A stretch of DNA of 29,707 bases from a virus, in the IMG/VR virus record IMGVR_UViG_3300034152_000095, positions 1-29,707 of that record; one strand, 5' to 3'. Position 1 is the first letter of the stretch; each line of letters opens with the position of its first letter. Both the position numbers and the translations under genes were made by a program. The notes under the pieces are model-generated. The model was not told the origin of the DNA, did no database searches, and saw nothing but the letters and a program-made list of their open reading frames with translations. Of the stretch, positions 5,112 through 29,707 are shown one piece after another.

Positions 5112-5120
5112 TTACAATTA

Positions 5121-7729: not shown

Positions 7730-7834
7730 GTACTAGTAATCACTAACACTAGAACGCATTAGGATTGCTCTGGTTGCTCTATTTTGATTTAGAGCTATCA
7801 TAGCATAGCTACGAAAAATCTCCAACCTAGAGTA

Positions 7835-7883
7835 GAATGACCATTCTAAATACTTGACTTTTATTTGGAAAGTATGATATAAT
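7835..7883 (+). promoter_or_regulatory. Promoter with GAATGACCATTC box and extended -10
   Basis: The palindromic box GAATG-AC-CATTC (7835-7846) lies 7 nt before TTGACT (7854-7859). After 18 nt comes TGATATAAT, with the -10 hexamer at 7878-7883. The leader carries AAGAGGAG ahead of the ATG at 7915. Confidence 0.9.
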
Positions 7884-7914
7884 AGTATTATAGAGAGAAA
7901 TAAGAGGAGTTATT

Positions 7915-8094
7915 ATGACATTCAAAACACAAGCAAATGAAATTGAGTTCGCCCAGTTGATATTAGCACTTGAGAAAGCTGGTGTATTCAATAATGAGCA
8001 AGTTATAGACAGTTTGTGTGAAGAATTGAGAGTTGCTCCTGTTGACTTGTGGTGCATTAAGAACAGAGCCGAGAAAGTATTGGAGGGAAAGTAA
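7915..8094 (+). CDS. Small helical protein of unknown function
   Basis: 59 aa. A strong AGAGGAG Shine-Dalgarno sequence lies at the right distance. The helical sequence contains EIEFAQLILALEKAGVF and VAPVDLWCIKNRAEKVL. It resembles in size and style the 63-aa gene at 5203, which shares the same promoter type, and both look like two- or three-helix proteins. No domain recognised. Confidence 0.75.
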   Translation: MTFKTQANEIEFAQLILALEKAGVFNNEQVIDSLCEELRVAPVDLWCIKNRAEKVLEGK

Positions 8095-8150
8095 AATGAC
8101 TAATTATAACATAACGTTAGAATTAGTTGTACTTGATCATTGTGATGTTA

Positions 8151-8199
8151 GAATGACCATTCTATTTACTTGACTTTTGTTTGGAAAGTATGATATAAT
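8151..8199 (+). promoter_or_regulatory. Promoter with GAATGACCATTC box and extended -10 (second copy)
   Basis: GAATGACCATTC (8151-8162), TTGACT (8170-8175), an 18-nt spacer and TGATATAAT with the hexamer at 8194-8199. The geometry is the same as the copy at 7835-7883. Confidence 0.9.
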
Positions 8200-8230
8200 A
8201 GTATTATAGAGAGAAATAAGAGGAGTTATT

Positions 8231-12554: not shown

Positions 12555-12618
12555 CTTTGAAGTCATACTTTTAATAAATAGGTTAAATAATAGTATTAAC
12601 TTATTGATTGGGTATGAT

Positions 12619-13161
12619 GTGAAAAGTAATGTAGAAAAACAACTAGATTGGATAAAAAGAACCAAAGAACGAATGATACTTGCCATGGGCAGTAAATGTC
12701 AGTGTTGTGGTTACAACAAAAGTCATGCAGCATTAGAATTTCATCATATTAATCCTGACGAAAAGGAATTCGGATTAGGAAGATGGAAAAGTAGATGTTG
12801 GGAGAAAATAGTGTCGGAATTACGAAAGTGTGTAATGGTGTGTTCAAATTGTCATAAAGAAATACACGCAGGTGTAAGAAAGATACCGAAACGAGCTAAA
12901 CGATTCAATGAAGATTATGCCGAATACAAAATAAGCATGACAACTCAAAGGAAATGTTTGTTTTGTGGAGATGAATATGATACCAAAATCAACTCTAAGA
13001 GCAAATATTGTTCTTATGAGTGTTCCAGAAAAGTAGCACAAAGGGTTGATTGGGATAAAATAGATTTACAAAAGGAATTGAGAACAAAAACAATAGCACA
13101 GATTGCAAGAGAACTTAATGTTTCATGGAACTGTGTTAAGAAACATATTAAGCGGTTGTAG
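12619..13161 (+). CDS. HNH endonuclease (free-standing homing-type) inside the tRNA array
   Basis: About 180 aa from the GTG at 12619; longer readings run back into tRNA-Lys and are not credible. The HNH core is clear: CQCCGYN (about 26-32), LEFHHINPDEKEF with H42-H43, and CSNCHKEIH near 75-83. A second CLFC...YCSYEC zinc finger follows, then a helix-turn-helix-like tail (TIAQIARELNVSWNCVKKHIKR) that would bind DNA. Such genes spread between phage genomes by cutting alleles that lack them. The last four codons (AAG CGG TTG TAG) also form the 5' acceptor strand of tRNA-Arg, so the two genes overlap by 10 bp. Confidence 0.9.
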   Translation: MKSNVEKQLDWIKRTKERMILAMGSKCQCCGYNKSHAALEFHHINPDEKEFGLGRWKSRCWEKIVSELRKCVMVCSNCHKEIHAGVRKIPKRAKRFNEDYAEYKISMTTQRKCLFCGDEYDTKINSKSKYCSYECSRKVAQRVDWDKIDLQKELRTKTIAQIARELNVSWNCVKKHIKRL

Positions 13162-13573: not shown

Positions 13574-13650
13574 TGATAGGAACTGCACCGGGTGTGGAGG
13601 GGAGACTGTTAATCTCTTTGTGGTGGGTTCGAGTCCCACCCTATCAGCCA
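13574..13650 (+). tRNA. tRNA-Asn (anticodon GTT), atypical D-arm
   Basis: 77 nt with CCA. The acceptor TGATAGG pairs with CCTATCA, the T-arm is GTGGG/CCCAC and the anticodon loop CTGTTAA. The D-arm is odd: AA replaces the usual TA at positions 8-9, and the D-stem CTGC/GGAG has a G-G mismatch. A second, canonical tRNA-Asn follows directly. Confidence 0.82.
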
Positions 13651-13659
13651 TTTATTTGT

Positions 13660-13735
13660 TCCTCTGTAACTCAGTTGGTAGAGTATTCGTCTGTTAAACG
13701 AGGTGTCGCTGGTTCGAGTCCAGCCGGAGGAGCCA
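13660..13735 (+). tRNA. tRNA-Asn (anticodon GTT)
   Basis: 76 nt with CCA. The acceptor TCCTCTG pairs with CGGAGGA, the anticodon stem is TTCGT/ACGAG and the loop CTGTTAA. It is close to the bacterial consensus tRNA-Asn. Confidence 0.95.
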
Positions 13736-16794: not shown

Positions 16795-17673
16795 ATGGCA
16801 TTTAAAGACTTAAAGAGAAGAAAAGGCCTAGATGAGCTAACAAAAGAGATTGAGAGCTATTCATCTAAGAAACAAGAAGATGATAGGTTCTGGAAAGTTA
16901 CCAGAGATAAAAGTGGTAACGGATCCGCATTGATTAGATTTTTACCTGCACCTGATGGAGAGACCTTTCCGTGGGTAAGAATGTTTAGTCATGCATTTAA
17001 AGGTCCTAGCGGACAGTGGTATATTGAGAAATCATTAACAACACTCAAACAGAATGACCCAGTTAGTGAATATAATTCTCAGTTGTGGCAGAACGGTGAA
17101 GAAGATCAAGCAAGAAAGCAGAAACGTAGGCTTCATTATGTTTCTAATATTCTTGTACTCAAAGACCCTGGCAACCCAGAAAATGAGGGCAAAGTGTTTC
17201 TATTTAAGTATGGAAAGAAAATCTTTGATAAGATCAAAGATCAAATGGAACCAGAGCCAGATGGACTTGAAGATAAAGAACCAGTTATACCTTTTGACCT
17301 TTGGGAAGGAGCAGACTTCAAACTCAGAGTGAGAATGGTTGACAAGTTCCCTAATTATGATAAATCTGAATTCAGCCGTCCAGAAGCTTTGTTTGAAGGA
17401 GATGATGAGAAACTAGAAGAACTGTGGAACAAAGAGTACAAACTCCAAGAATTGATTGCTCCGAGTGAGTTCAAGAGTTACGACCAGTTGAAATCGAGAC
17501 TCGAAACAGTACTGTGCTTGTCGTCTAATGCCCCTGTGCAAAACTCAGCACCGAAAGCTGAGGCAGCAGCTCAATCTATATCAGAGCCAGAAGCAGAGAT
17601 AGAGGAAACTCCATCGACTAATGAAAGTGATGATGAGCTTGAGACTTTGTTGCAATTAGCGTCTGAAGATTAA
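16795..17673 (+). CDS. 32: Single-stranded DNA-binding protein, T4 gp32-like
   Basis: 292 aa from the ATG at 16795 (GGAG upstream). It has a basic N-terminus with the LAST-like KRRKG, then the core: GNGSALIRFLP, SHAFKGPSGQWYIE, VSNILVLKDPGNPENEGKVF, KIFDKI and FDLWEGADFKLRV, all collinear with T4 gp32. An acidic Asp/Glu-rich tail ends DDELETLLQLASED, as expected for the protein-interaction domain. The zinc ligands are missing: H66 remains, but the T4 cysteines are replaced around EKSLTT (78-83) and DPVS (88-91). Its stop overlaps the convergent tail gene's stop. Confidence 0.95.
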   Translation: MAFKDLKRRKGLDELTKEIESYSSKKQEDDRFWKVTRDKSGNGSALIRFLPAPDGETFPWVRMFSHAFKGPSGQWYIEKSLTTLKQNDPVSEYNSQLWQNGEEDQARKQKRRLHYVSNILVLKDPGNPENEGKVFLFKYGKKIFDKIKDQMEPEPDGLEDKEPVIPFDLWEGADFKLRVRMVDKFPNYDKSEFSRPEALFEGDDEKLEELWNKEYKLQELIAPSEFKSYDQLKSRLETVLCLSSNAPVQNSAPKAEAAAQSISEPEAEIEETPSTNESDDELETLLQLASED

Positions 17674-19910
17674 GACGTTTCTGTTCTGACAGCGGAACCA
17701 CCTCTAGTTGACATGGGTGCTCTTCCGCTGTTTTTTCCTCCAGAGCTTGTGTTGATTTGGGTGCTATTAATTACACTATTATTAGCACTAACAGTGTTCA
17801 TAGCTTGAGTCAATTCATCAATAGAATCTCTTAACAAAGACATTTCGTTTATATTATTCTTAGCCATAACTGTTGGTTTAGGACCACCCAATAGACCGGC
17901 GAATTGTCTTTGTTCACCAGTTGGACCTAATCTACGATTTTCTAGCCCTTCATGTGGCACTAATTGACCATTAACTGTTACTTTATTCCATTTAGCAAAT
18001 TCTTCTGATGCTCCCTGATAATCACCAGCGTTTAACTTTTGTAGCATTGTTGATGTTTTGAATCCAAGAACACGTTCATTTCTAGCTGTATTCGGATTAT
18101 CTTCTCTACCTTCACCTACATTATATACAAATGATACGAGAGCATCAAATTGGTCTTGTGTTAATGGTACTTTAACATTACGTTTAACAATATTCTCAAA
18201 TTTTCTAACATCACGTTCAAATAACTGTTCTGCTTCTTGTGGGGTTACTGTATCTCCTAATTGAACTGGCTTACCATCTAGTCCAATGCCAGTTCCATAT
18301 CCAATTGATACTTGTTTGAAATCGCCATATGCTTGTAACTCTGGAACACCACCTCTTGTTTCTCTGAGTTTAAGTAGTTTCTTACCCTTATCTGACATAC
18401 TCATACCAGTTGCAGAACCCTTTTTCTGTCCAGCCATATCAACTTGTGGTGCAGGTTTACTTGTTAAGAAGCCTTGCTCTTTGCGTTTGTGCATTTCATT
18501 TCTATGCTTATCATATTTACGTTTTTTGATTCGTCTTTGTTTCTTTATGAGAGCATCTTTGTATGATTGTGCTGATGCATCACTAATCTTGCCAAGATAT
18601 TGTTGTTTGCCACTAGCACGTTCTTGTTTACGCATGATAACTTTGATTCGATTGAGATTCATATCTTCAATCTTTCTTATTTTGTCATCTTCTTCCGATT
18701 CAATGATTTGTAATGCAGCTAATCTTTCTGAACGTTCAGCACTAGCACTACGACTTGAAGCTGATCTGATTTCTTTTTCTGGATCATATATGCCGAGTGT
18801 TTGTTTAATGGCTCTGTTGAATTTTCTCCACCAAGTTCTGAATCCAGAGTCATCATTGAAGAACATTTCATCTTGCAGTTGTTTAATAAAGTCCTCAACA
18901 CCAGAAGCTTTAAAGAATTCACTACTAAGCTTATATGATATCCCACCAACAGCAGCTAGAAGTAGTCCTTTACCAACTATTGCTGTTGCGGCAGGTATCA
19001 AGGCTCCAATAGAACCACCAAGAGCAGCACCCGAAAATGCTGCCGTTGGATTAGTAAGCAAGTTCATAATGTTTTTGAATACATTTCCTTTTTTCTTCTG
19101 TTTGAAATCTTCTGGCTTAACTCCAGGTATATCACCACCACGTTCAACTCTAGCGAATAGTCTTTCTCTCTCTTCTTCTAATTTTCTTAGATCACTAGCA
19201 TCATCTTCTCTTTCTTCATTGACCATGAATGTATAGATATTTTGTAATATATCTCTGATTTCTTGTAGATATTCACCACTTTGTAGTTGTGGTGTATCAG
19301 AAACAGGCTCAGCAGGCATATCATCAACTGGTTCAGGTTCTGGAGTTGTCCCAGGAGCTGCCATTGCTTCTTGAAATCCTTCTATATCTCCCTTTCTGGC
19401 TTTTCTAAGACTATCTCTTTCTTTAGATTTTCTTTCTCGACGAGCTTTCCATTTATTGCCAAGATAATTGGCGGCGATAGCCATTAATGGATCATTACCA
19501 GTTATACCGATAAGTATAGAAGTAACATCAACGAAATTATCTGAAATCATCCCTTTGAGTCTATTGGTTATGGACGTTTTCTTATCAATATCATCAGCCA
19601 ATGCTTTGTTCAGTGCATCACTTCTGGCATCTAATACTTCCAATTCTTTGTCTGTGATACTAGCTTTTTTATATGCTTTGCGTAATAGTTTTAATCTTGC
19701 GTGTCTTTCTTTGAGTCCAGCTACTTGATCTTTTTCTGCTCCTTGTAGTAATTCATTGAACATATTGGCAAAGAATTCAGTTTCTTTACTGAATTGGTCA
19801 TCTTCTTTTTGTGTACCTTTGAATTTAGATGCAACATCACCGTATCTGCGCTCCTCGGCAGTCATGTTCCGTCTGCGTTCTTTTTCTAAGAAGTCATTAA
19901 TAGAAGCCAT
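17670..19910 (-). CDS. Large tail protein with C-terminal GH24 lysozyme domain (tape-measure-like)
   Basis: 746 aa. The N-terminal 200 residues are helical and highly charged, then a Pro-rich linker (about 185-205) and another charged coil. Hydrophobic, Gly/Ala-rich membrane-like stretches lie near 123-150 and 285-328. A GH24 (T4-lysozyme-type) domain spans about 505-665: LRETRGG (catalytic Glu about 516), AYGDFKQVSIGYGTG, LTQDQFDALVSFVYNVG and GLENRR. The last 80 residues are Ser/Thr/Asn-rich. Membrane segments plus lysozyme suggest a tail component that opens the cell wall at DNA entry. A tape-measure role fits its place last in the tail operon but is inferred. It overlaps the upstream gene by TAATG. 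Confidence 0.85.
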   Translation of the reverse strand: MASINDFLEKERRRNMTAEERRYGDVASKFKGTQKEDDQFSKETEFFANMFNELLQGAEKDQVAGLKERHARLKLLRKAYKKASITDKELEVLDARSDALNKALADDIDKKTSITNRLKGMISDNFVDVTSILIGITGNDPLMAIAANYLGNKWKARRERKSKERDSLRKARKGDIEGFQEAMAAPGTTPEPEPVDDMPAEPVSDTPQLQSGEYLQEIRDILQNIYTFMVNEEREDDASDLRKLEEERERLFARVERGGDIPGVKPEDFKQKKKGNVFKNIMNLLTNPTAAFSGAALGGSIGALIPAATAIVGKGLLLAAVGGISYKLSSEFFKASGVEDFIKQLQDEMFFNDDSGFRTWWRKFNRAIKQTLGIYDPEKEIRSASSRSASAERSERLAALQIIESEEDDKIRKIEDMNLNRIKVIMRKQERASGKQQYLGKISDASAQSYKDALIKKQRRIKKRKYDKHRNEMHKRKEQGFLTSKPAPQVDMAGQKKGSATGMSMSDKGKKLLKLRETRGGVPELQAYGDFKQVSIGYGTGIGLDGKPVQLGDTVTPQEAEQLFERDVRKFENIVKRNVKVPLTQDQFDALVSFVYNVGEGREDNPNTARNERVLGFKTSTMLQKLNAGDYQGASEEFAKWNKVTVNGQLVPHEGLENRRLGPTGEQRQFAGLLGGPKPTVMAKNNINEMSLLRDSIDELTQAMNTVSANNSVINSTQINTSSGGKNSGRAPMSTRGGSAVRTETS

Positions 19911-20143
19911 TACTTATCTTGATTCCATTTATCATCAAATGTTGAGAATCCTACATAAGCACCAATGATTGATGCTGCAAAGAGATAGTAACCTGTAATG
20001 ATATCATCCAAGAGTGCTAGTTTCTCTTTGTCTACTACGAATAGAACCAAAAATAGAACAATAATAGCAGTAATGAGAGCCATATATGCCATTCTTCTTC
20101 TATGTTTCCATCTAATTGTTGGTTGTGGGTGTTGATCAGTCAT
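19910..20143 (-). CDS. Small two-helix membrane protein (holin-like, or tail-associated)
   Basis: 77 aa. After a basic start (RWKHRRRM), two hydrophobic segments follow: MALITAIIVLFLVLFVV (about 20-36) and a Gly/Ala-containing one, YYLFAASIIGAYVGFSTF (about 52-69), joined by a charged loop. The size, charge and topology allow a class II holin. It sits among late tail genes just before the lysozyme-containing protein, consistent with a lysis or injection role. Proteins of the RWKHRRRMA type occur in marine T4-like phages to my recollection. The ATG has no Shine-Dalgarno sequence and lies 5 nt after TATAAATA. Confidence 0.75.
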   Translation of the reverse strand: MTDQHPQPTIRWKHRRRMAYMALITAIIVLFLVLFVVDKEKLALLDDIITGYYLFAASIIGAYVGFSTFDDKWNQDK

Positions 20144-25845: not shown

Positions 25846-25874
25846 TTGACACATATATATTATAGTGTTATACT
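25846..25874 (+). promoter_or_regulatory. Sigma70-type promoter
   Basis: TTGACA (25846-25851), a 17-nt spacer and TATACT (25869-25874). It is followed by a leader of about 18 nt containing TTAGGAG before the ATG at 25899. It marks the switch from late tail genes to the accessory block. Confidence 0.8.
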
Positions 25875-25898: not shown

Positions 25899-26207
25899 AT
25901 GGACGTTGTAGAGGTATTGATAATTTTGGCACTATCATTTACTTTTGGATTTTTGATCGGTCTTCTATTTAAAAAATTAGCTAAAGACTTGAAGAAGCTT
26001 AAAGAAAGACGAGAAGAAAAGAAACGAATGGAAGCATATAGCAATGCTATATCCAAAGGAATCAGCACAAGTGTATTCACACGCAAATCGGATAAAGATA
26101 TAGCTTTGGATAAAATGGCAGCAGCTAATGAAAAGTTCCAAAAGCGAATGGCTGAAGAACAGAAGCAAAGAGAAAAAGAGGAATTGGAGAAGAAAAATAA
26201 TGAGTAA
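25899..26207 (+). CDS. Membrane-anchored coiled-coil protein
   Basis: 102 aa. One N-terminal transmembrane helix (VLIILALSFTFGFLIGLLF, 6-24) is followed at once by KKLAKDLKKLKERREEKKR, then a long charged coiled coil to the end. The strong positive charge after the helix predicts a cytoplasmic C-terminus, so it is unlikely to be an inner spanin despite the similar outline. A role at the inner membrane early in infection is possible; function unknown. Confidence 0.78.
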   Translation: MDVVEVLIILALSFTFGFLIGLLFKKLAKDLKKLKERREEKKRMEAYSNAISKGISTSVFTRKSDKDIALDKMAAANEKFQKRMAEEQKQREKEELEKKNNE

Positions 26208-26424
26208 GAAATATGATGTATGTGGTCGCTGCGGTGATGACAACTGGTTTGTAAAAGAATTTGATGATTTGGTATTAGCTAAGATGTATCAAAAGAAATG
26301 CCAATTAATTGTAAATGGGTTTCATAAGACAAGAAAATTTGACAGAACCAGCTCAAAAGATCCAAATTTAATCATAAATCCTGATGTTCCAACAGAGTAT
26401 TTTATAGTGGAATCAGACGGATAA
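26200..26424 (+). CDS. Small protein with a CGRCG motif
   Basis: 74 aa from the ATG at 26200 (MSKKYDVCGRCG), overlapping the previous gene by 8 nt; longer readings lie inside that gene. One CxxC pair near the N-terminus, the rest mixed helix and strand, ending in EYFIVESDG. No family recognised. Confidence 0.7.
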   Translation: MSKKYDVCGRCGDDNWFVKEFDDLVLAKMYQKKCQLIVNGFHKTRKFDRTSSKDPNLIINPDVPTEYFIVESDG

Positions 26425-26483: not shown

Positions 26484-26572
26484 GGGGGTTAGGAAATAAA
26501 AGGGTTAGCAGGAAAAGCTGGAAATATATTAAATAATATAATCCAGTCCTCCTTCCGATGATGGAGAACGAT

Positions 26573-26935
26573 GTGAATAATATACCTTGCTGTGAAATAT
26601 GCGGACTTCAGTTAGAGCCTGGAAGAACGATTGACCTAGATACCAATGAAATCATTGAGTGGTATTATCAGTGTGATTGCCATGATAATCAATTCTTAGA
26701 TGAATTATCCAACACAGTATTCACCGATTTACATAAACTATTCTCAGATATAATTGCAGCAAATAACAACATTTCATATTCAGTTGAGAATAGTATTCTT
26801 ACTGTCAATTACGAAAAGATACCTAAAATAGATATTGAACGTATGGAGAAATACATTAAGAGAAAGTATCCAAATATTAAGACAACTAAAGTTGGAAAAT
26901 ATGCATATCAATATCAAGAGATATCAGATGGATAA
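26573..26935 (+). CDS. Small zinc-finger-like protein; paralogue-array member 1
   Basis: About 120 aa from the GTG at 26573, which has GGAG 6 nt upstream; ATGs at 26558 and 26561 would add 4-5 residues but lack a Shine-Dalgarno sequence. The N-terminal CCEICG and a CDC pair could bind zinc. The C-terminal half has the strand-helix-strand pattern shared by the downstream array, ending in YIKRKYPNIKTTKV. It is coupled to the next gene by an 8-nt overlap. Confidence 0.65.
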   Translation: MNNIPCCEICGLQLEPGRTIDLDTNEIIEWYYQCDCHDNQFLDELSNTVFTDLHKLFSDIIAANNNISYSVENSILTVNYEKIPKIDIERMEKYIKRKYPNIKTTKVGKYAYQYQEISDG

Positions 26936-27209
26936 ATTAGATAGATTTTATCAAGATATCCAAGTAGCATTTGATGAACGATTTATAGATCGTATAGAAA
27001 CAAAATGTAATGACAATTTTATAGAATTATCCATAATACCACACTCACACAATAAGACAATATTGGAACGCATAGTGGAATACATACATTCCAAATATGA
27101 ATATGGTGCAGCTATCAGAGACAATAAAGTTATTATCATATTATGTAACAAGAAAAACTTGACACCATTTCATAATGTGATACACTTAAAGAATGAACAA
27201 TGTAATTGA
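26928..27209 (+). CDS. Small protein; paralogue-array member 2
   Basis: 93 aa from the ATG at 26928, overlapping the previous stop; longer readings lie inside the previous gene. The order is an N-terminal helix, the strand FIELSIIP, the helix ILERIVEYIHSKYEYG, then the strand NKVIIILC. The Y-I-x-x-K-Y core is shared with the later genes at 28617-29597. Confidence 0.7.
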   Translation: MDKLDRFYQDIQVAFDERFIDRIETKCNDNFIELSIIPHSHNKTILERIVEYIHSKYEYGAAIRDNKVIIILCNKKNLTPFHNVIHLKNEQCN

Positions 27210-27504
27210 GTTTAAGCCCAAACTAACATTAGTTGAGCGTGTACTTAAACAATATGATATTGAGTACATGATTGAGAATAACTATTTGGAATTCAGAATA
27301 GTTAGTCCAAGTAACCACAAGAGAGTATTTGTTGGTGTATATTATGGTGAAACTGATGATATGTATATTGTGAATATGGCAATTGAAGAAAGTACCCGAT
27401 ATAATTTTTTATATAATGACTGTGATTTTGCTTTCACTCGCCGTACAGTGGCAGAAGAAATAAATGGCATTATAGAATATCACAATGAATGGATCACAAA
27501 ATGA
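27193..27504 (+). CDS. Unrecognised 103-aa protein
   Basis: Overlaps the previous gene by 17 nt and the next by ATGA. It has alternating strands (LEFRIVSP, KRVFVGVYYG, DMYIVNMAIEE) and a C-terminal helix. It resembles the neighbouring array in size and in its first strand-helix unit, but lacks a clear Y-[IL]-x-x-K-Y core, so I do not count it as a member. Function unknown. Confidence 0.7.
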   Translation: MNNVIEFKPKLTLVERVLKQYDIEYMIENNYLEFRIVSPSNHKRVFVGVYYGETDDMYIVNMAIEESTRYNFLYNDCDFAFTRRTVAEEINGIIEYHNEWITK

Positions 27505-27749
27505 CTAGAATTAAATTCAAAATACTTGAAGATACATTTGCAAATGGCAATAAAAAATATCGTATTAAATATAGAAAGAGATTCTGCCCATTTTGGATAT
27601 CTTGGTACAAGTATAGATGGATTGATGACTCGCCGCAATATTATGTTGATACAATTAAAGAAGCTGAGATGGTGTGTCGAAATTTAGAGAATCAAATCAA
27701 ATCAAAAATAAAGATATCAACTAAAATAATTAATCATTTTAATCAATAA
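27501..27749 (+). CDS. Small basic protein, unknown
   Basis: 82 aa from the ATG at 27501 (ATGA overlap); an ATG at 27489 is an alternative. It is very basic and aromatic (KYRIKYRKRFCPFWISWYKY), suggesting nucleic-acid or membrane-surface binding. The acidic patch DDSPQYYVDTIKEAE is followed by a helix and a lysine/isoleucine-rich tail. No domain recognised. Confidence 0.7.
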   Translation: MTRIKFKILEDTFANGNKKYRIKYRKRFCPFWISWYKYRWIDDSPQYYVDTIKEAEMVCRNLENQIKSKIKISTKIINHFNQ

Positions 27750-27759
27750 CATAGCTATA

Positions 27760-27809
27760 GAATAACCATTCATTATGACTTGATTTCTCTATTCAACCTG
27801 TGATATACT
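27760..27809 (+). promoter_or_regulatory. Promoter with GAATAACCATTC box and extended -10
   Basis: GAATAACCATTC (27760-27771), 8 nt, TTGATT (27780-27785), an 18-nt spacer and TGATATACT with the hexamer at 27804-27809. It is a fifth member of the boxed-promoter family, here starting the last accessory operon. Confidence 0.8.
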
Positions 27810-27840
27810 AATAGTAAGCATTGAATATGGAGAGTATATC

Positions 27841-28023
27841 ATGGCGTGTTTCTATTGTCAAAAGAATAAACCAACTAAAAATATTGATGATGATTTGATC
27901 TTATATGTTAAAGATTTAGATGAAACTGTTGTTTTGTGTGATGACTGCCATAATGATTTGAGAGAGACACATCAACAGCACCAAAAAATAGTAAAGATAC
28001 TAAAATCAAAAGATTGTCAATGA
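27841..28023 (+). CDS. Small zinc-ribbon-like protein
   Basis: 60 aa with ATGGAGAG before the ATG. CFYC (3-6) and CDDC form two CxxC pairs, as in the 57-aa gene at 5404, which is also downstream of a boxed promoter. The helical C-terminus is His/Gln/Lys-rich. The two may be distant paralogues. Confidence 0.72.
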   Translation: MACFYCQKNKPTKNIDDDLILYVKDLDETVVLCDDCHNDLRETHQQHQKIVKILKSKDCQ

Positions 28024-28256
28024 AATGGGGTGAAGAATTAACAGCAAAAGATTGGCTATTTAGGGAGCTTAATGAGGAACATTTCTTTCAAAATATGAAA
28101 ATATTAGATGTTGGAAACTGCAAGTTATCAATAAAAGTCAAAGATAAGATATACTGCAATCGAGTTCGGAAATACTTATTGAAAACTTATTATCCTGATG
28201 TTATAATGAGAATAGCTGTTAGAGGTGATATAATACAGATATGGATAAGAAAATGA
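28020..28256 (+). CDS. Small protein; paralogue-array member 3
   Basis: 78 aa from the ATG at 28020 (ATGA overlap; a TTG at 28014 is less likely). It has an N-terminal helix (EELTAKDWLFRELNEE), the strand CKLSIKVKD, the helix VRKYLLKTYYPDV and the strand DIIQIWI. The same order of elements occurs in the array genes that follow. Function unknown. Confidence 0.72.
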   Translation: MKWGEELTAKDWLFRELNEEHFFQNMKILDVGNCKLSIKVKDKIYCNRVRKYLLKTYYPDVIMRIAVRGDIIQIWIRK

Positions 28257-28636
28257 GTGATGATTTAAAGGACTTTATCGGTGAGTTGAAAACAGCAGCT
28301 AAAAATGGTGATGTAGTTGTAATACTTGAATCACATTTAGATAGAATACTTATTGTTCCAACATCAGAGCAAACAAATGATAATATGGTATTCGCTTGTA
28401 ATAAAATGGAACAGAGATATGCACAATTGGGCAGTTTTGGTGTTATACAGAGTGTGTTAGCATTTCAGCCATGCAGCTATATGGCAACAGAATATTTGAA
28501 AGACATTAAGACTTATTTGCCTGTTTATGATTACAATGAATTGATAATATCAAGCCAAAGTAAATTTTCAAAAGACTTTTGGTCAGCACTAGATAGTTAT
28601 CACAGAAGGAGAAAGGGTGCAAAGTCTAATTACTGA
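28253..28636 (+). CDS. Unrecognised 127-aa protein
   Basis: ATG at 28253 (ATGA overlap); an ATG at 28241 would add MDKK. It contains an N-terminal amphipathic helix, the strand GDVVVILESHLDRILIVPTS and helices from about 45 on. It looks unlike the array members around it. The C-terminus RRRKGAKSNY is basic. No family recognised. Confidence 0.7.
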   Translation: MSDDLKDFIGELKTAAKNGDVVVILESHLDRILIVPTSEQTNDNMVFACNKMEQRYAQLGSFGVIQSVLAFQPCSYMATEYLKDIKTYLPVYDYNELIISSQSKFSKDFWSALDSYHRRRKGAKSNY

Positions 28637-28898
28637 GATCCATAAACTACTCAAAATGGGCGAGTTGCGTAATATATGGTTCTATAAACATGGTAGATAT
28701 GCTGGTTTAAAATTTAACAGACCATCAAATAAGCAAAAAGAAAAGGCTATAGAGCATATTAATAGCAAATACAGTGATATACTCAAAGCTACAGGCAACA
28801 AAAAAATTGTAAATGAAATTAGATTGAAGTTCAAGAGTAATAAACTATTACTTAAATTTTATAATGAGATATTCGAGCAATATGGAAAAGGCGACTAA
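28617..28898 (+). CDS. Small protein; paralogue-array member 4, GTG start
   Basis: 93 aa starting at a GTG with a strong AAGGAG 5-6 nt upstream, inside the end of the previous gene. Order: helix, strand YAGLKFNRP, helix KAIEHINSKYSDILKATG, strand EIRLKF and a terminal helix. INSKYSDI is nearly identical to ISQKYSDI in the next gene, direct evidence of paralogy. Confidence 0.75.
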   Translation: MQSLITEIHKLLKMGELRNIWFYKHGRYAGLKFNRPSNKQKEKAIEHINSKYSDILKATGNKKIVNEIRLKFKSNKLLLKFYNEIFEQYGKGD

Positions 28899-29148
28899 AC
28901 TGGCAAATGAGCTGAGAGAACAATATAAAGCTGGTAACATAACGTTTACCAATTTTTCTCTAAAAAAGAAGCTTGTTGGCATTGCATTGAGGCGACCAGA
29001 AATTGGTGATTCAGTGTCGCTATACATATCACAGAAATACTCAGATATTATGTATCCATGTAGGAGATTAGATTATCATAGCATTATATTCAGATTCAAA
29101 ACTGTTGATGATTATCGAAAGTTTATAGATGGGGTACAAAAACCATGA
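28882..29148 (+). CDS. Small protein; paralogue-array member 5
   Basis: 88 aa from the ATG at 28882 (CGAG upstream); an ATG at 28864 would add MRYSSN. N-terminal helix ATKLANELREQYKAG, strand LVGIALRRP, helix VSLYISQKYSDIMYP, strand SIIFRFKT, then a short helix. Function unknown. Confidence 0.75.
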   Translation: MEKATKLANELREQYKAGNITFTNFSLKKKLVGIALRRPEIGDSVSLYISQKYSDIMYPCRRLDYHSIIFRFKTVDDYRKFIDGVQKP

Positions 29149-29597
29149 GATCTGCCAGAAGATTAGCAATTGAAATAAAGAATAACTGGAAAGACATTAG
29201 AATAATTGATTCTGATCCTACCATTTATTCTGTGAATTTTAATATTAAAGATAAAAAGAAAAGAAAGGAAGTTAAGAACTATTTAAACAAAAAGTATGAT
29301 GACATATTATCTCATGTGAATTTAAGGGATGATGGTATCAATATTATGTTTGAGTACAATGAAGATTTCTTATTCTTTGATGATCAAATATTATTGGAGC
29401 CTATGGTTCCTGTTGGTACAGTTGTTTCTAAACTTTCAGATGATGTGTGTTTGCCTTATGGATTTTTAAATTGTGATGGAGGACATATTTCTAAAGATGA
29501 ATTTCCACAATTATATGAAGCTTTGGCTGGCTATACAGAGCTGCATGGAGTAGCTCAGTTACCAAATTTGTCAGGACATCTAATTAAGGCTATATGA
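29145..29597 (+). CDS. Paralogue-array domain fused to a phage tail-collar domain; member 6
   Basis: 150 aa, ATGA-coupled. Residues 1-75 repeat the array fold: helix ARRLAIEIKNNW, strand YSVNFNIKD, helix VKNYLNKKYDDILSHV and strand INIMFEY. Residues about 87-150 are a tail-collar domain of the T4 gp12 type: PVGTVVSKLSDDVCLPYGFL, then NCDGG, ISKDEFPQLYEAL and LPNLSGHLIKAI. Collar domains are found at the tips of short tail fibres. A fusion with a non-structural small domain is unusual. The frame has no sign of a frameshift, and the stop at 29595-29597 overlaps the next ATG. Confidence 0.8.
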   Translation: MRSARRLAIEIKNNWKDIRIIDSDPTIYSVNFNIKDKKKRKEVKNYLNKKYDDILSHVNLRDDGINIMFEYNEDFLFFDDQILLEPMVPVGTVVSKLSDDVCLPYGFLNCDGGHISKDEFPQLYEALAGYTELHGVAQLPNLSGHLIKAI

Positions 29598-29707
29598 GTG
29601 GAACAAAAACAAGAAAGGAGTTATTTGAGCAATTATTGAAAGAATTAATAGATAAGGTGATGTGTTATAATTTGCATATCGAAGGGCACAATAGACACAC
29701 AAATGGA
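29594..29707 (+). CDS. N-terminal part of a small protein, cut by the window end
   Basis: It starts in an ATGA overlap with the previous stop and stays open for 38 codons to the end of the window. The sequence starts MSGTKTRKELFEQLLKELID and is helical and charged. It may be another array member, but the diagnostic core is not reached. Confidence 0.6.
   Translation, partial: MSGTKTRKELFEQLLKELIDKVMCYNLHIEGHNRHTNG

Follow-up and report, generated by a model that had tools for sequence, protein, structure and literature searches.

Small phage proteins commonly act by binding host proteins (PMC11323111). T7 Gp0.4, Gp4.5 and Aqs1 (PMC11323111) are of this kind and their targets are known. The six proteins described here, which we call A to F, are likened to them by kind and not by sequence: they are small and apparently non-enzymatic, and their promoter type fits early expression.

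Among described folds, the C-terminal oligomerisation domain of ArgR/AhrC (2p5m, 1b4b) has the alpha-beta-beta-alpha-beta-beta-alpha order predicted here, and it recurs near the top of the Foldseek matches for the models of F and B (target-normalised TM about 0.5-0.6). However, these matches have E values of 0.1-0.7 at 12-17% identity, the members have no DNA-binding N-domain and no sequence-profile match was found. We treat the likeness as a resemblance only and do not assign the members to ArgR; the recurring matches suggest only that the predicted topology is of a known two-layer alpha/beta type. The LAGLIDADG homing-endonuclease fold (I-CreI, WhiA) also shares the element order but gives a weaker match. 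Inspected by eye, no member ends helix 1 with a LAGLIDADG motif, and Pfam gives no match; the members do not belong to that family. Finally, the C-terminus of F matches most of the phage tail-collar domain (PF07484, phrog_523). Unlike a collar on a long fibre, this one sits on a small unrelated N-terminal domain and scores just under the Pfam cut-off.

The cluster and its setting

The window, meaning the whole 29.7-kb virus record that was analysed, is a fragment of a T4-like myovirus. Its recognised T4-like gene set comprises gp32, gp59, DNA ligase, a lysozyme-type hub, a baseplate hub, tail tube, gp2 and gp4, together with gp48-like and gp53-like proteins, a phrog_350 tail protein and 14 tRNAs. 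The gp32 protein is ~53% identical to that of the closest known phages (P-SSM2, DLP_6) and likewise ~53% identical, over its whole length, to the best viral contigs. For gp4 the identity to relatives is ~55%, and for the tail protein adjoining the array ~24%. By these identities, the phage is an isolated, distant relative of T4. The tRNA array itself contains an ORF with weak HNH matches (12607-13161) and two tRNA-Asn(gtt) back to back (13574-13735). The DNA at 12696-12866 is 77% identical to Prevotella Lak megaphages and, in the part of the window that was searched (4708-29707), is the only near-match to phage records apart from tRNA-Ala.

An earlier note had proposed a tandem array of about six small paralogues. 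All six ORFs are present, whereas the array is not uninterrupted: four other genes, at 27193, 27501, 27841 and 28253, intervene. The genes, all on the + strand, form two blocks. Block 1 consists of an ORF at 25899, a small CxxC protein (26200-26424), A (26558..26935), B (26928..27209) and two unrelated ORFs. Member A starts with ATG at 26558 (GTG at 26573 is an alternative) and carries an N-terminal CxxC...CxC ribbon at ~aa 6-40 ahead of the shared domain (~26699-26932). The first unrelated ORF (27193..27504) is small and overlaps B; the second (27501..27749) is small, basic and PHROG 2010-like, of unknown function. A promoter cassette separates these from block 2, which opens with a zinc-ribbon-like ORF (27841..28023; CxxC...CxxC, HNH_5-like with an E value of 1.4e-4, below cut-off) that overlaps C (28020..28256) by 4 nt. 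An unrelated ORF follows (28253..28636), then D (28617..28898), whose GTG start at 28617 is preceded by AGAAGGAG, E (28882..29148) and F. In F the shared domain (29145..29402) continues in frame into the collar domain (29403..29597). The contig end cuts a further overlapping gene, of which the start is seen (29594..29707).

Adjacent genes share 4-20 nt (ATGA or longer) throughout two stretches, A to 27749 and 27841 to the contig end; in block 1 a gap precedes A. Translational coupling, as proposed in the earlier note, would fit this overlapping arrangement of the DNA. Ribbon-like genes are locally concentrated, the CxxC protein at 26200-26424 lying directly before A and near the two other cysteine-ribbon proteins (the A N-terminus and 27841).

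Relatedness and predicted fold of the six members

The relatedness tests were run without the sequence motif by which the six had been proposed. In an all-against-all comparison of 51 window proteins (1275 pairs), D-F and E-F took the top two ranks, in that order, with D-E at rank 5 and C-F at rank 6. Taken singly, no pair is significant (best E value 0.11 after correction), but chance would not be expected to place four of the six top pairs among these neighbours. Leave-one-out profiles in a window-sized search recovered F at 4e-8, E at 4e-5, D at 9e-5, A at 6e-4, B at 0.17 and C at 0.83; C, which pairs with F, was recovered from it pairwise (E value 0.003). A second leave-one-out setup gave 9e-7, 6e-5, 0.001, 0.002, 0.02 and 0.5 for the six members, compared to a best E value of 0.018 and a best second member of 0.6 among 150 random sextets drawn from segments of the window proteins, controls that correct in part for the six having been picked after their sequences had been seen. 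Mutual recovery by profile, whose failure the earlier note would have taken as a refutation, is seen for A, D, E and F and, by pair, for C, with B weak; the best E value is far below that of the random sextets (9e-7 versus 0.018). In addition, A and D are 73% alike over a 26-nt stretch in helix 1 of the shared domain.

By these computations, A, C, D, E and F at the least descend from one ancestor. Membership is firm for A, D, E and F and good for C; B is weak in sequence and supported by its fold. What the members conserve is restricted to core and helix-cap residues (Y-x4-Y-x-D-I), while charge and loops differ: from member to member the shared domain spans a pI of 6.5 to 10 and a net charge of -1 to +11. 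The motif alone was rejected as a definition of the family, since it is found also in an unrelated baseplate-wedge-like protein (L062, as YLQKKYPNI). The ORF at 28253, whose element order looks similar by eye, was rejected as a member; no profile relation to the family was detectable.

AlphaFold2 (AF2), given the other members as alignment, models F as alpha-beta-beta-alpha-beta-beta-alpha over residues 2-83, with a pLDDT mostly of 81-94 (81-94 over aa 1-80); the collar part is not resolved. From its single sequence, B is modelled as alpha-beta-beta-alpha-beta-beta (pLDDT 72, pTM 0.63), the third helix being present in the F model. The two models share a fold, and the helix-strand order given in the earlier note is borne out for both, except that each half has one strand more than it counted. 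Because B was folded without the other members, its predicted structure independently supports its membership, and we consider B a probable member of the family.

It is improbable that the resemblance is partly a coincidence, with D, E and F (and C) a real family and A and B alike only in a common type of fold and in a helix-cap motif that occurs often. The profile's failure to recover B, its modest recovery of A and the similar motif in the baseplate-like protein would all be expected in that case. Nevertheless, only the single best value of the null is on a par with that of the fifth-best real member (0.02), and the second of the null is far weaker (0.6); B is predicted to adopt this fold when modelled by itself, and A and D share their helix 1 stretch.

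The fold also raises the question of nucleic-acid binding. Under this explanation, the domains would have LAGLIDADG or ArgR-C topology and be either decayed remains of homing endonucleases or small regulators or binders of DNA or RNA. The element order agrees with both folds, weak Foldseek matches include ArgR C-terminal domains (F, B), WhiA and I-CreI (F) and PI-PfuI (B), and the pI values of C, D and E lie on the basic side, at 9.5-10 (D, at pI 10, is very basic). Nonetheless, no Foldseek match to the F or B model falls below an E value of 0.02, the end of helix 1 is without the LAGLIDADG-type glycine/acid motif, the domains of A and F are, like B, near neutral, and PDB sequences yield no hit by profile. 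We therefore regard this explanation as unlikely.

Searches for relatives outside the array gave no significant match to the shared domain in Pfam, PHROGs, PADLOC or PDB sequences; PADLOC gave a single weak and partial hit, in which C matched the profile of a type I specificity subunit (E value 0.015). Likewise, tblastn in phages with B, D, E and the F domain gave nothing above noise. Scans of viral contigs with F, E and a D-E-F alignment, and of genome contigs with the D-E-F alignment, found no relative; such scans rely on short peptide patterns and mostly detect close relatives, and a C-D-E-F alignment was too diverged for them. T4-like contigs collected via gp4 and gp32 (50 and 30 records, most of them fragments) contained no member. 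Two weak leads were dropped: a match to G048 (E value 0.02, 21 positions) was dismissed, and phrog_7777, weakly similar to B, led nowhere. The proposal of diverged tandem paralogues from an unrecognised family is upheld by profile recovery, shared predicted fold and these searches. As far as tested, the domain appears to define an undescribed family within the collections searched, although its kind is familiar, that of the small orphan proteins of large phages.

Promoter-like sequences

Ahead of block 1, a sigma-70-type promoter-like site (25846..25874, +; TTGACA-17-TATACT with an extended -10 TG) lies in a 57-nt intergenic gap, 24 nt before the ORF at 25899; it is a consensus match only, at 11 of 12 bases. 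Ahead of block 2, a promoter cassette (27758..27810, +) consists of TAGAATAACCATTC followed by TTGATT-18-TATACT. The 14-base element TAGAATRACCATTC occurs in four exact copies in the window (in the 27758 cassette and at 5119, 7833 and 8149) and in none of 100 shuffles. All four copies are on the + strand, each ~80 nt before a small ORF. For sigma-70-type sites in general, a scan of the window shows no excess over shuffles.

TATAAATA is the T4 late box. It is found 13 nt upstream of three starts, 365, 20143(-) and 23048, and those at 20143(-) and 23048 head runs of structural genes; across the window the exact sequence is not enriched (5 found versus 4.7 expected). The run at 17670-20143 (-), whose first gene has TATAAATA 13 nt upstream, comprises a small membrane-type ORF and the gene for the 746-aa lysozyme-type hub protein. 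Block 2 has no TATAAATA ahead of it and has the host-type cassette. Taken together, the promoter-like sequences and the shared element would fit early transcription.

Elsewhere in the window, two promoter-leader cassettes at 7833-7915 and 8149-8230 are near-identical (TAGAATGACCATTC ... TTGACTTTT ... TATAATAGTATTATAGAGAGAAATAAGAGGAGTTATTATG) and ~316 nt apart; the cassette recurs at 5119 and, in diverged form, at 27758. The cassette could be a spreading promoter unit; no further copy was found in viral contigs.

Fused domains and the possible role of the family

Two members carry a second domain. The C-terminus of F matches phrog_523 (E value 2.7e-6) and PF07484 (E value 4.7e-5; 23.7 bits, 0.3 below the curated cut-off of 24), and F is shown by these computations to be fused to a predicted phage tail-collar domain. 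In the same way, A is shown to be fused to a predicted cysteine ribbon. Read from the sequence, the ribbon fusion in A and the ribbon gene that overlaps C may represent a single pairing, fused in one place and split in the other.

Of the features seen, the collar fusion speaks most strongly for a role in the virion, at least for one copy. It raises the possibility that the family consists of virion or tail-fibre modules, in which the domain would be a unit of collar or fibre attachment or assembly and the separate copies would be baseplate or fibre accessories or chaperones. The cluster also lies behind the gp48-gp53-like and phrog_350 tail genes and shares their strand, which points the same way. 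On the other hand, a structural domain is present in only one of the six copies, A bears a ribbon instead, the block is preceded by a host-type promoter cassette and no TATAAATA, and the domain was not found in ~80 T4-like records, most of them fragments. On balance we consider a structural role for the whole family rather unlikely.

We favour, with a probability of about 50%, a lineage-specific family of small alpha-beta-beta-alpha-beta-beta(-alpha) proteins that arose by local duplication in a small-gene cluster beside the baseplate operon and serve as early accessory binding proteins. Local duplication would have expanded the domain family within the cluster, and host RNA polymerase would transcribe the array genes early. 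The domain would be a non-enzymatic binding scaffold, the most economical proposal because no catalytic pattern is conserved, only core and cap residues are common and charge varies. Each copy may have a binding partner of its own, a protein or nucleic acid that probably belongs to the host, as is the case for many small phage proteins, and F would have been diverted towards the virion through the gain of its collar domain. That virion-type collar and the position of the cluster after baseplate genes count against an early accessory role, as do the consensus-only nature of the promoter matches, the numbers of sigma-70-type sites and of exact TATAAATA, neither of which exceeds expectation, and the failure of PADLOC to give a convincing match.

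Action against host or rival systems, as the earlier note had suggested, could only be inferred; the sigma-70-type promoter-like sites ahead of both blocks and the wide variation in surface charge (pI 6.5-10) lend it some indirect support, and the collar domain of F, which the note had not noticed, speaks against it. More speculatively, and with less than even odds, the family may be a new phage domain family that serves as an evolvable scaffold, its early copies directed one by one at different targets in the host or its defences and one copy moved onto the virion by collar fusion.

The family is at present known from a single contig fragment. One scaffold in several copies, one of them joined to a virion domain, would allow binding specificity to be compared among paralogues, and new inhibitors directed against the host may be sought among the diverging tandem families of small proteins that phages carry.
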